A DNA stretch of 64,000 nucleotides from Fibrobacter sp. GTDB lineage: Bacteria > Fibrobacterota > Fibrobacteria > Fibrobacterales > Fibrobacteraceae. Under the pieces are notes generated by a model that saw nothing but the letters and a program-made list of their open reading frames with translations, had not been told where the DNA came from and searched no databases. Each line of letters opens with the position of its first letter. The stretch's first letter is position 1. Made by a program: the position numbers and the translations under genes. Below are positions 24,341 to 28,667 of this stretch, in pieces. The DNA is taken from NCBI GenBank assembly GCA_017503015.1, contig JAFVTX010000009.1:1-64000 (forward strand). Direction: 5' to 3'.

Positions 24341-24431
24341 AAACGGGCGGTTGTCTGTGGACATTGGGTACCGGGCGTTGGGCGTCGGACGCTGTAATTT
24401 GCTAGATTGTGAAGGTTAAGAAGAGGTGATT

Positions 24432-24869
24432 ATGAAAAAATCATTGTTTTTGTTGTTGCTGGCTTTTGGGCTTTTGTTTTCGGCCTGCTCCGTGGAAGAG
24501 CCTTCTGTAGTTTGCGGCAGGGAATGGAACCCGGGCACCCAGGTGGTGGCCGATACCGCTAGCGAGTTCGCCCTGAACGACCCGCTGATTGTGCAGTTCC
24601 GCTACGGCAAGAATTTCGACTTTACCAAGTTGACCATCGCCTTTTACGAAGGAACCTTGGCTGCCAAGGGCAAGAAGATTTGGGACCGCGAAGTCCCCGT
24701 GAACGAGAAGCTGGGTTCCTACACCCTGCAGGGAAAGTCCAAGAGCGGCGGCCTCATGACTGTCCGTGAACTGGCCCGCCAGAAACACCCCGGTATCGTG
24801 GTGGTGGAATTCAGCACCGAGGGCCGAGTCCTTGCCTCTAAGGAACTGAACATTACGAAGAACAAGTAA
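24432..24869 (+). CDS. Lipoprotein, hypothetical
   Basis: Start at 24432 (second Met of the frame; preceded by aagaggtgat) gives a signal peptide MKKSLFLLLLAFGLLFSAC with lipobox FSAC. The mature 125 residues are beta-rich (DPLIVQFRYGKNFDFTKLTIAFYEG) without a recognised domain. It heads a run of four genes: two more lipoproteins and the MetH-like gene follow with no or almost no spacing. Function unknown. Confidence 0.68.
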   Translation: MKKSLFLLLLAFGLLFSACSVEEPSVVCGREWNPGTQVVADTASEFALNDPLIVQFRYGKNFDFTKLTIAFYEGTLAAKGKKIWDREVPVNEKLGSYTLQGKSKSGGLMTVRELARQKHPGIVVVEFSTEGRVLASKELNITKNK

Positions 24870-24896
24870 CCGATTTTTGCGACAGGTTTGTTAGGA

Positions 24897-25838
24897 ATGC
24901 GATTGAGTAGATGTCTTGATATTTGTGGCGTGGCCCTTGCGGCTTTTGGCCTTGTGCTTTTGTCGGGTTGTAACGAATCTACGGTGACGGTGGGCTACAG
25001 CCTCCCGGCCCCAGTGGATTTGGAACTTTATGCCGAAAGTTATTATGCTACAGTAGATATGGAAGGCACGGAGCAGATGGGGACCATCACCGCCGCCTAC
25101 GACGACTTGAACTATTCCTCCAGTGGCGACACCCTGAAGGTAAAACGCAAGTACGTGATGGACAAGTCCCGTGGCTACCTGAAGAACTTTATGCCTACGG
25201 AACTGGCCTTCCGCATCAAGGAAGTGGACCTTACCGCCGTGGACCGTGCGGTGATTTCTTTGGAAGGAATTGACGACGGCTACGATTCTCTCCTGGCCCA
25301 CATTCCCATGCCGGAGCGCTGGCGCAAGCAGCTTTTGAATCCAGAATACAAGCCCCACCTGAAACGCCTGGAAAAGCACCGCTGGGAAATGACTCACCTG
25401 CTTAAAGGGGAAGTGCCCACCAAGGGGAACATTACCAAGCTGCTGGAAGAACAGGGGCGCCTGAACTTTGCGCTGATCAAGATTGATTCCGTGGTGGTGA
25501 AGGGTTTTGAAAACCGGGATCACCGCCGTTGCCTGGACTACGTGGTGTACCTGACGGAAACGGAGAGTTTCCCTTACTATATCTGGGAGCAGCACGTGAA
25601 CAGCAACATCATTCCTGAAAAGTACCAGGCTTACAATTCCGGACTCAAGGCGGAATACAGCACCGCCTTCGAGGTGATGATGGAACCCGAGACGGGAATC
25701 CCCTGCCAGGAACGCGAGGTGAAGGTGGGGAAGCATACCATGGTGCACCCTGTCACCAAGGATACGGTGGTCTTTAAAAGCCACATTACCAATGAACGCC
25801 TGTTCAACCTGAAAAGGGCCGAGGAGAGCGCCGAGTAA
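24897..25838 (+). CDS. Lipoprotein, hypothetical
   Basis: ATG 24897 is chosen; a TTG at 24888 is an alternative. A lipobox LSGC follows a hydrophobic run (ICGVALAAFGLVLLSGC). The 313-residue product has no recognised domain; it is rich in charged residues and contains a long segment LNPEYKPHLKRLEKHRWEM. It is followed by the next lipoprotein with a 1-nt overlap (taatg at 25836-25840). The two probably act together. Confidence 0.65.
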   Translation: MRLSRCLDICGVALAAFGLVLLSGCNESTVTVGYSLPAPVDLELYAESYYATVDMEGTEQMGTITAAYDDLNYSSSGDTLKVKRKYVMDKSRGYLKNFMPTELAFRIKEVDLTAVDRAVISLEGIDDGYDSLLAHIPMPERWRKQLLNPEYKPHLKRLEKHRWEMTHLLKGEVPTKGNITKLLEEQGRLNFALIKIDSVVVKGFENRDHRRCLDYVVYLTETESFPYYIWEQHVNSNIIPEKYQAYNSGLKAEYSTAFEVMMEPETGIPCQEREVKVGKHTMVHPVTKDTVVFKSHITNERLFNLKRAEESAE

Positions 25839-26335
25839 TGTTTTTTAGGGAACGTAACGGATTGGGTGGTGTGAACTTCGCGAAGGGCTTTGCGAAGTCG
25901 CTCTTTGCGTTGCTTCCGCTATTGATGCTGGCCATGCTTTCGGGTTGCGCGAACCACCCCTCGCCCCAGCAGACTATGGTGGACGACCGCTACATGGTTT
26001 ACGAACAGACCTACAAGGCCTACGCCGAAGCGGAGAAGAAATACTTGAACCTGCTTTTCAACATCGAACGCCTGCCCGAAGAAGAAGAACTGTGGATGAT
26101 GAAGCGGGACCAGATGCTGGAACTTTTGCAGTTGCGGGATCTGATGCTCCAGGCCCGTGGCGAGCTGGACGATGCCGTGCAGGACTGGGAAAAGCATCTG
26201 CAAGAACTTCAAGCTGAGGCAAAGCAGGCTCAGATAAAGCAGTTCAATCCGAACTTTACGGGGCGAGACGGCCAGCGGTCGAGCCCCGGGCAGTTGCTGC
26301 CCGGCGAAGTGAAGGGCAAGAACCAGCGGTGGTAA
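25838..26335 (+). CDS. Lipoprotein with coiled coil, hypothetical
   Basis: The signal is atypically long (about 35 residues, ending LAMLSGC, lipobox). The mature part is short (about 130 residues) and highly helical (YKAYAEAEKKYLNLLFNIERL, EELWMMKRDQMLELLQLRDLM), suggestive of a coiled coil or helical bundle. Its C-terminal ARGELDDAVQDWEKHLQELQ continues this. The start shares a base with the stop of the previous gene; the MetH-like gene begins 4 nt after its stop. Function unknown. Confidence 0.65.
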   Translation: MFFRERNGLGGVNFAKGFAKSLFALLPLLMLAMLSGCANHPSPQQTMVDDRYMVYEQTYKAYAEAEKKYLNLLFNIERLPEEEELWMMKRDQMLELLQLRDLMLQARGELDDAVQDWEKHLQELQAEAKQAQIKQFNPNFTGRDGQRSSPGQLLPGEVKGKNQRW

Positions 26336-26339
26336 GACT

Positions 26340-28667
26340 ATGGCCATGAATCTTTCCAAATCCTACCAGGAGCTGATTTCTTGCTGTAACCACCAGGTGT
26401 TGGTTCTGGATGGCGGTTTCAATGCCGTGCTCCAGCGGCTGAATCTGTCCGAGGCCGATTTCCGCGGGAAGATGTTTGCAGATCACTTTGTGGAACTGAA
26501 AGGCGACAACAACGTGCTGTGCCTTACCGCGCCGGACAAGGTGAAAGGGATTCACCTGGCATTTTTGGAAGCGGGCGCGGACCTGATAGAGGCGAATACC
26601 GCTTGTGCTTCCAGTTTTGGCCAGACCAAGTACCGTCTGGAGCACATGGCCTACGACATAGCCAAGGCGGGCGCCCAGGCGGCTTGCGAAGCCGTTAAGG
26701 AATTTAACGCCTGGCGCAGGGTCCAGGGAAAGATGGTGACGCCCAAGTTTGTGGTTGGGGCTATTGCGTCTATTTCTTCTGTGACGGACTTTGGCGAACT
26801 TTCGATGGCCTACGGTGAGCAAGTGCGTGGGCTTTTGGACGGTGGTGCCGACGTGCTTTTGGTGAAATCGGTTTCCGATATGCGAAATTGCAAGGCCGCT
26901 CTTTACGCCATCTGCAAGGAATGCGAAAAACGGGGCGAACTTTTCCCCATTATGGTTTCGGGAAGTTTTGTTGGCTCAGGCGGCCGCATGGCGGCAGGGC
27001 TTTCGGCCAAGGCCTTTTGGCATAGCGTTTCCAGTTTTCCGATTTTCAGTATTGGGTTCAACTGTGGCCTAGAAGCCGCTGACATACGCTCCCTTATGCG
27101 GGATGTGGATAGTGCCCGCGTGCGCTTGAGCGTGTGTGCCGACAAGATAATCCCGGACGAGGTCTCGGTGAACATCGTAGGGGGCTGTAGCGAGACTACG
27201 CCCGAGGCAATCCGGACCTTTGCCCGTGTGTATGCGGCAAGAGATCCCCGCAAGGTGCCTGCCCGTGACTACAACATGCTGTTGAGCGGGCTTGAACCTT
27301 TGGAACTAGCCCCTGAACACAAGCTTGTTTCCATTGTGCCGCCTGGGAAACCGGGAGCTGTCGTGCGTGTGGACCTAGACGGAGGGCTTGCGGACCCGAA
27401 AGCCGAGATGCCCCGATTCTTGAAGGATTTGTTAGAAACGCCATCCATAGCCAAGTGCCCGGTGATGATAGAATCCATCCGGTGGGATACCTTGCTTTCG
27501 GGCATGGAAAACGTGCAAGGCAAGGGAATCGTCAAGTCCATCAGCCTCAAAAAGGGGGAGGACGTTTTCTTCTTTGAGGCCGAAGAGATTCGCCGTCACG
27601 GCTTTGCCGTGGTCTGCAGGGCCGAGGATGAACAGGGACCTGCCCTGACCTATGAGCGTCGCACGGAATTGATGGAACGTATGTACCGAATGTTGGTGGG
27701 CCGTCTGGATTTTGCGCCCGAAGATATCCTGTTCGATCCGGTGGTCTTGCCGGTGGGTACAGGCCGGGATGAATATCCGGATTCGGCCAAGGAATTCATT
27801 GAGGCCTGCCGTTTTGTGAAGGACAATCTGCCTCACGCCCATGTGGTGGGTGACCTTTCTTTGCTGGGGTATGCCTTCAAGGAAGACGCCTACTTGCGGG
27901 ACTGTATGAATTCCGTGTTCCTGAACCATGCGACCATAGCGGGAATGGATTTTGGAATTGTAGAAGACGGCGCCATGCTGGCTTACGAGGATATTCCGCT
28001 GGAGCTTCGCCACCTGATAGAAGACCTGCTGTTCAACCGCAGTCCGGAGGCTACGGACGCCCTGCTGGAATATGCGGAATCGTCGGTCAAGAAAAGGGCG
28101 GGTTCTGCCGGAGCGAAAATTTTCATGCCCCGGCTGGAAAAACGTTTTGCCGAATTGAAACGGAATTTGGCTGCCAAGCGGGAATCTCTTGGGAGCGAAG
28201 CCCGTGTGAATCCTCCTTTTGCCTCTAAGTTCGTTCTTGCCTCGATGGATTCCCTTGTCCACGATATCGACAGGGATATTCTGGACGAACTGCTTATGAA
28301 CTACGGGTTTCCGGTGGTGGACCTGCAGCAGGGGTGCTCCTGCGAAAAGATTCTGGAAACCCTGGTCTGCGAACAGCCGGACATTGTCTACCTGTCGGCA
28401 CAGTTCAATTCGGGACTCCTGGAAATGATGCATGTGGTCCGGGAATTCAAGAAACAGGAAATTGGAATTCCCCTGCTTCTCGGTGGCAGTGCCGTGTCCG
28501 ACGGACTTGTGGCGGCACGGATTGCACCCGAGGCCCTTGGGCCTGTGGTCTATGTTTCCGACGTGCGGAAAGTGGTCAAGGTGGCAGAAGCCCTTGTGGA
28601 CGAAACCAAGCGCCCGGCGTTCCTCGAAGCCCTGAAGGCTCACCAGAAGAAGGTGGCGGTGGTGTGA
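26340..28667 (+). CDS. MetH-like protein with degenerate catalytic and cobalamin sites
   Basis: The 775-residue protein keeps the MetH domain order: a homocysteine-methyltransferase barrel (residues 15-330), a pterin-binding barrel (about 340-610) and a B12-binding Rossmann domain (630-770), without the activation domain. Long runs match E. coli MetH, e.g. LDGG, QGKGIVKSISLKKG, FDPVVLPVGTG. The zinc site keeps Cys242 and Cys283 but the third Cys is Ser284 (GGCSETTP for GGCCGTTP). The folate motif SNVSFSFRG reads SLLGYAFKE, and the first pterin strand is shortened. The cobalamin motif DVHDIG reads LVHDID: the His (641) remains, Asp and Gly do not. It may be non-catalytic. It follows three lipoprotein genes. 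Confidence 0.82.
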   Translation: MAMNLSKSYQELISCCNHQVLVLDGGFNAVLQRLNLSEADFRGKMFADHFVELKGDNNVLCLTAPDKVKGIHLAFLEAGADLIEANTACASSFGQTKYRLEHMAYDIAKAGAQAACEAVKEFNAWRRVQGKMVTPKFVVGAIASISSVTDFGELSMAYGEQVRGLLDGGADVLLVKSVSDMRNCKAALYAICKECEKRGELFPIMVSGSFVGSGGRMAAGLSAKAFWHSVSSFPIFSIGFNCGLEAADIRSLMRDVDSARVRLSVCADKIIPDEVSVNIVGGCSETTPEAIRTFARVYAARDPRKVPARDYNMLLSGLEPLELAPEHKLVSIVPPGKPGAVVRVDLDGGLADPKAEMPRFLKDLLETPSIAKCPVMIESIRWDTLLSGMENVQGKGIVKSISLKKGEDVFFFEAEEIRRHGFAVVCRAEDEQGPALTYERRTELMERMYRMLVGRLDFAPEDILFDPVVLPVGTGRDEYPDSAKEFIEACRFVKDNLPHAHVVGDLSLLGYAFKEDAYLRDCMNSVFLNHATIAGMDFGIVEDGAMLAYEDIPLELRHLIEDLLFNRSPEATDALLEYAESSVKKRAGSAGAKIFMPRLEKRFAELKRNLAAKRESLGSEARVNPPFASKFVLASMDSLVHDIDRDILDELLMNYGFPVVDLQQGCSCEKILETLVCEQPDIVYLSAQFNSGLLEMMHVVREFKKQEIGIPLLLGGSAVSDGLVAARIAPEALGPVVYVSDVRKVVKVAEALVDETKRPAFLEALKAHQKKVAVV

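Follow-up and report, generated by a model that had tools for sequence, protein, structure and literature searches.

A MetH-like protein at the old split methionine synthase locus of Fibrobacter, probably a MetH-derived pseudoenzyme

The methionine synthase MetH has been described in forms whose parts are separate proteins, and also beside reduced enzymes of other descent. A split MetH with a separate activation protein is represented by TM0268 and TM0269 of Thermotoga, as cited in PMC7857596. In Phaeobacter inhibens a MetH in three parts was reported, for which the parts work as separate proteins and supply the methionine synthase activity (PMC5764234). The core methionine synthases MesA-D are reduced methionine synthases homologous to MetE, and they keep the zinc and homocysteine residues (PMC7857596). 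As for cofactor handling, the MetH of Escherichia coli has a His759-Asp757-Ser810 linkage (PMC4915002).

In this study we examined a MetH-like gene, named MHL here, in a Fibrobacter window of 64,000 nucleotides (positions 1 to 64,000 of contig JAFVTX010000009.1, assembly GCA_017503015.1). Among the papers retrieved on methionine synthase together with Fibrobacter, split MetH or pseudoenzyme, none describes this protein as judged by title and abstract. Our analysis leads to the reading that MHL is probably a pseudoenzyme derived in place from MetH, which was left after displacement by a foreign fused metH and would now act as a non-catalytic binding protein.

The window gene and its altered sites

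The first-pass annotation of the window had located the gene 4 nt behind a lipoprotein gene in a run of three, which is indeed its setting:

24426..24869, + strand: lipA, lipoprotein gene, ancestral neighbour (ORF list; locus comparison)
24888..25838, + strand: lipB, lipoprotein gene, found in 79 of 80 genomes of the genus (locus comparison)
25838..26335, + strand: lipC, lipoprotein gene ending 4 nt ahead of the MHL start (ORF list; locus comparison)
26340..28667, + strand: MHL, probable MetH-like pseudoenzyme, 775 aa, ATG start (Pfam, NCBIfam and PDB matches; 19 further copies in the genus)
26400..27227, + strand: barrel derived from the homocysteine domain, PF02574 (S-methyl_trans, residues 21-296, E 3e-45, Pfam)
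27288..28094, + strand: barrel derived from the pterin domain, PF00809 (Pterin_bind, residues 351-541, E 4e-15, Pfam)
28113..28664, + strand: remnant of the B12-binding domain, PF02310 (B12-binding, residues 630-720, E 7e-10, Pfam; alignment)

The domain order of MHL, namely homocysteine barrel, pterin barrel and B12 domain, is that of MetH, and human MTR aligns with it over the full length (phmmer E 3e-131). However, MHL falls below both NCBIfam cut-offs for MetH (590.9 against 1497 bits and 564.2 against 1010.85 bits), and the Pfam search of MHL gave no match to the cap PF02607, the activation domain PF02965 or the MetE-type barrel PF01717. Searches of lipA, lipB and lipC (24426-26335) against Pfam and NCBIfam gave no informative match, and a scan for promoters and terminators returned signal no higher than the shuffle expectation. 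An AlphaFold prediction of MHL from 10 sequences (mean pLDDT 49.5, pTM 0.38) was too poor for reading its fold or pockets.

Residues were compared with human MTR and the MetH of Fibrobacteraceae. The 23 MetH of the family share 247 invariant columns, of which the window protein retains 127, substitutes 93 and is without 27. The positions discussed below are:

27063..27065, + strand: Cys242, first zinc-ligand position, retained in the window clade (alignment)
27186..27191, + strand: Cys283-Ser284, the Cys-Cys zinc pair in MetH, GGCC to GGCS (alignment)
27624..27626, + strand: Glu429, Phe in 23 of 23 MetH and Glu in 18 of 19 MHL copies (alignment columns)
27852..27854, + strand: Asp505, Gly in 23 of 23 MetH; of the 19 MHL copies, 18 have Asp and one has Glu (alignment columns)
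28110..28115, + strand: junction of the cap deletion, where the B12 cap domain has lost about 63 residues (alignment)
28254..28271, + strand: LVHDID in place of DVHDIG (DxHxxG), with L639, H641 and D644 (alignment)
28413..28415, + strand: Gly692, aligned with E. coli Ser810, ITPS to FNSG (alignment; linkage PMC4915002)

These comparisons agree with what had been read on the first pass from the letters, that is, one zinc Cys replaced by Ser284 (C242 and C283 being retained), DxHxxG turned into LxHxxD, and both the B12 cap and the reactivation domain missing. Two further changes at the homocysteine site had escaped that reading, namely a deletion of 21 residues in the zinc-site loop and the exchange of Glu176 in ETxFD for Lys; in MHL of other clades additional zinc Cys are absent. 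The loss of the folate-loop Asn, also claimed earlier, is part of a larger one, for 29 residues of the GERxNxxGS...Q stretch are deleted in the window protein at about 27340. In addition, the folate-pocket motifs are changed from IDS to IES (E378), from VNS to VKS (K399) and from GGxSN to GDLSL (D505, L508), where from motif matching and general knowledge of MetH we take E378, K399 and L508 to be the folate Asp, Asn and Asn positions.

Over both barrels, just three columns switch from one near-fixed residue in MetH (at least 90% of the 23) to another in MHL (at least 85%). Two of the three, F429E and G505D, are in the pterin barrel, within motifs from which the pterin pocket of MetH is built, and the acids D430, E431 and D/E466 are retained. 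The two switches may mark a new ligand pocket in MHL.

The split MetH core and the fused MetH in Fibrobacteraceae

In other genera of Fibrobacteraceae, MetH is mostly split into a core of about 880-950 aa and a separate PF02965 activation protein of about 260-350 aa. The latter also occurs in three Fibrobacter genomes (G032, G042 and G082), which carry a split MetH with a core of about 930 aa and no fused MetH; in our locus table the split cores bear the label of their best query, i.e. fused MetH. In these three genomes the core lies directly behind lipA-lipB-lipC, which is the arrangement of the window. In the tree of MetH-like proteins that the first-pass annotation had proposed, the 19 intact MHL form a single clade (100/99), nearest to the core of G042 and G082 and far from fused MetH. 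Since MHL shares both the locus behind lipA-lipB-lipC and the grouping in the tree, it is the in-place orthologue of the old split MetH core.

The same comparison removes a clue to function. The lipoprotein neighbourhood had been taken as a new association of a metH-like gene; it is in fact ancestral, with intact split cores sharing the order lipA-lipB-lipC-metH. The order lipA-lipB-lipC is constant in all Fibrobacter lip loci examined, and the lipoprotein genes remain in genomes without a MetH-like gene at the locus.

Most of the genus Fibrobacter carries fused metH. The genome of the window (G000, 2.96 Mb, 99.94% complete) encodes a complete fused MetH of 1,219 aa on another contig (C57:43331-46990; L003:3332-6991), which is the second metH that the first pass had advised seeking. 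Its only PF02965 match is inside this fused MetH and there is no separate activation protein; metF is present. The metE of this genome is a broken fragment (contig C2:47345-47626) with PF01717 positions 148-206 and 289-323 and internal stops, and judging from this fragment the B12-independent methionine synthase is lost as well. With a separate complete fused MetH and metE reduced to a fragment, it is very unlikely that the cell makes its methionine with MHL, and the idea that MHL is its only methionine synthase, which would have contradicted the first-pass annotation, is rejected.

Between the genome of the window and G059 or G033, the fused MetH is 98% identical with dS of 0.28-0.29, whereas the neighbours rlm and lipB reach dS of 1.4-2.1 in the same genome pairs. 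The fused metH is flanked by different genes in different Fibrobacter species and behaves like a roaming gene. The low divergence against that of the neighbours, together with the differing surroundings, indicates that fused metH spread horizontally. In two other genera the Fibrobacter-type fused MetH takes the place of the split form in some members, and a fused MetH of native type (1,243-1,259 aa) occurs in two genera; among the sampled members of the phylum outside Fibrobacteraceae, no fused MetH copy exceeded 53% identity.

Fates of the old gene and selection on its copies

In 80 Fibrobacter genomes the locus holds an intact split core in 3, a long MHL in 12, a short MHL in 8 and no copy in 57, where absences in incomplete genomes are soft, many of the related genomes being metagenome-assembled. 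The degenerate MHL is thus found in 20 of the 80. Several of the related Fibrobacter genomes come from ruminants. The long form has 775 aa in the window and the eight short ones about 587-655 aa without the B12 domain. In all 20 copy-less loci examined, rlm-lipA-lipB-lipC is retained with no trace of metH, as expected of clean deletions. Fused MetH sequence is present in every MHL carrier but G050 (82% complete), with only a fragment in G017 (62% complete). A frameshift near residue 125 interrupts the long MHL of G090 (L096:7481-9971), which is then either a pseudogene or the product of an assembly error.

The tree of MHL rejects a parallel origin of the long and short forms (AU p 6e-5, on long branches), while the neighbour-gene tree points mildly in the opposite direction and weakly disfavours a single origin (p 0.039). 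The folate-loop deletion arose more than once, since it is present patchily, in the long clade and some short copies, and is absent in G033, G046 and G081.

Pairwise Nei-Gojobori estimates gave dN/dS of 0.06-0.105 in the window clade, 0.07-0.17 in a clade of about 70% identity and 0.03-0.28 in the short clade, compared with 0.04-0.09 in fused MetH. The ratio is low at all depths and for each of the three domains that the long form has, dS between copies reaching about 2.2; for the B12 domain the ratio is 0.05-0.24, and in the window clade the homocysteine-derived barrel is the most constrained domain. The evolutionary rate of MHL is roughly double that of real MetH, and 145 columns are invariant over the 19 copies. 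Because dN/dS stays within 0.03-0.28 and frames are open without in-frame stops in 19 of 20 copies, at divergence up to about 55%, the degenerate copies are not pseudogenes and are under purifying selection. Taken together with the complete MetH elsewhere in the genome, this makes a purpose other than methionine synthesis likely, as had been supposed on the first pass. Between G000 and G086 (26340-28094), dS is 0.17 in the homocysteine part and 0.59 in the pterin part of MHL, a contrast which suggests recombination within the gene.

Possible roles of MHL and comparison with known systems

The history we propose is as follows. A complete fused metH of foreign origin would have spread in the genus and assumed methionine synthesis; the separate activation protein would then have been lost, and the old core would have been either deleted, in most species, or retained as a degenerate protein. 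In the latter, homocysteine activation would be lost with the zinc Cys and the substrate Glu, folate binding with the residues of the loop and the pocket, and the normal handling of the corrinoid with the cap, DxHxxG and Ser, one clade having lost the entire B12 domain. The most likely role left for MHL would be that of a ligand sensor or a scaffold for protein partners built of two barrels in tandem, to which the B12 module is an optional addition; this module appears dispensable, for the short clade without it is still constrained. With all three substrate and cofactor chemistries apparently gone and the constraint continuing, MHL is more readily explained as a pseudoenzyme than as a gene in decay or a corrinoid enzyme that has been altered.

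A bolder version, which we put forward as rather doubtful, is that the displaced methionine synthase was rebuilt as a new Fibrobacter protein class, with an acidic pocket at E429 and D505, a new ligand or reaction and an optional corrinoid module.

The first-pass annotation had suggested that MHL, which keeps the His for B12, may bind a corrinoid or other cofactor for a different purpose. Spelled out, MHL would be a methyltransferase or sensor for a new substrate that still binds a corrinoid through His641, which could apply to the long form only. His641 and a new HDIDRD stretch are indeed invariant in 11 of 11 long copies, and the B12 domain carries fixed changes at 21 positions besides its low dN/dS. 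However, the His has lost its Asp and Ser partners, the Gly of the motif and the protective cap are gone, the eight sister copies without the whole B12 domain are nonetheless under selection, and an Rfam search at the gathering threshold of the window and five related loci, covering MHL and fused metH, detected no cobalamin riboswitch or other element. The idea is weakened by this and we consider it unlikely.

It is also unlikely that MHL is a displaced core decaying without function, which persists because loss is slow. Its absence from 57 of 80 genomes, the clean deletions, the frameshift in G090 and the clade-by-clade difference in lost sites and domains, with the folate loop deleted more than once, would suit such a relic; but the low dN/dS at every depth and in every domain of the long form, the open frames of 19 copies and the 145 invariant columns speak against it.

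Still less probable seems a new enzyme, in which the pterin barrel was remodelled to an acid-lined active site (E429 and D505 with the kept D430, E431 and D/E466) for another substrate. This would account for F429E and G505D being two of the three near-fixed barrel switches and for their place in pterin-pocket motifs, but the structure prediction is unusable, the pocket loop is deleted in some clades, and no product, partner or pathway gene was identified. Finally, MHL might conceivably still take part in MetH chemistry, acting in trans with a second protein.

Under our preferred reading of MHL as a non-catalytic pseudoenzyme, a single genus displays, step by step, what can become of a core-metabolic enzyme after displacement, from the intact split form through a capless degenerate one and one without the B12 domain to clean loss, and selection persists past the loss of the catalytic sites. 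Annotation pipelines may label MHL genes as methionine synthase and hence misjudge how far rumen bacteria need B12 and methionine, and the near-universal acid changes E429 and D505 offer a handle for finding the new role.

Compared with MetH itself (TIGR02082 and NF007024; human MTR, E. coli and Thermus), MHL shares the domain order and the full-length alignment and differs in its sub-threshold scores and in the loss of the zinc Cys, folate pocket, DxHxxG, cap and activation domain. With split MetH, as in Thermotoga and Fibrobacteraceae, the relation is closest, for MHL is by position and tree the direct orthologue of the Fibrobacteraceae cores; however, its catalytic and cofactor sites are lost and the activation partner exists in the genome only within fused MetH. 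Unlike in Phaeobacter inhibens (PMC5764234), a complete fused MetH is present here and MHL is without the active-site residues. Unlike MesA-D, MHL derives from MetH (PF02574, PF00809 and PF02310, with no PF01717) and has lost zinc and homocysteine residues. As predicted from sequence, MHL combines two features of a pseudoenzyme, namely catalytic residues that are lost and a gene that is retained by selection.
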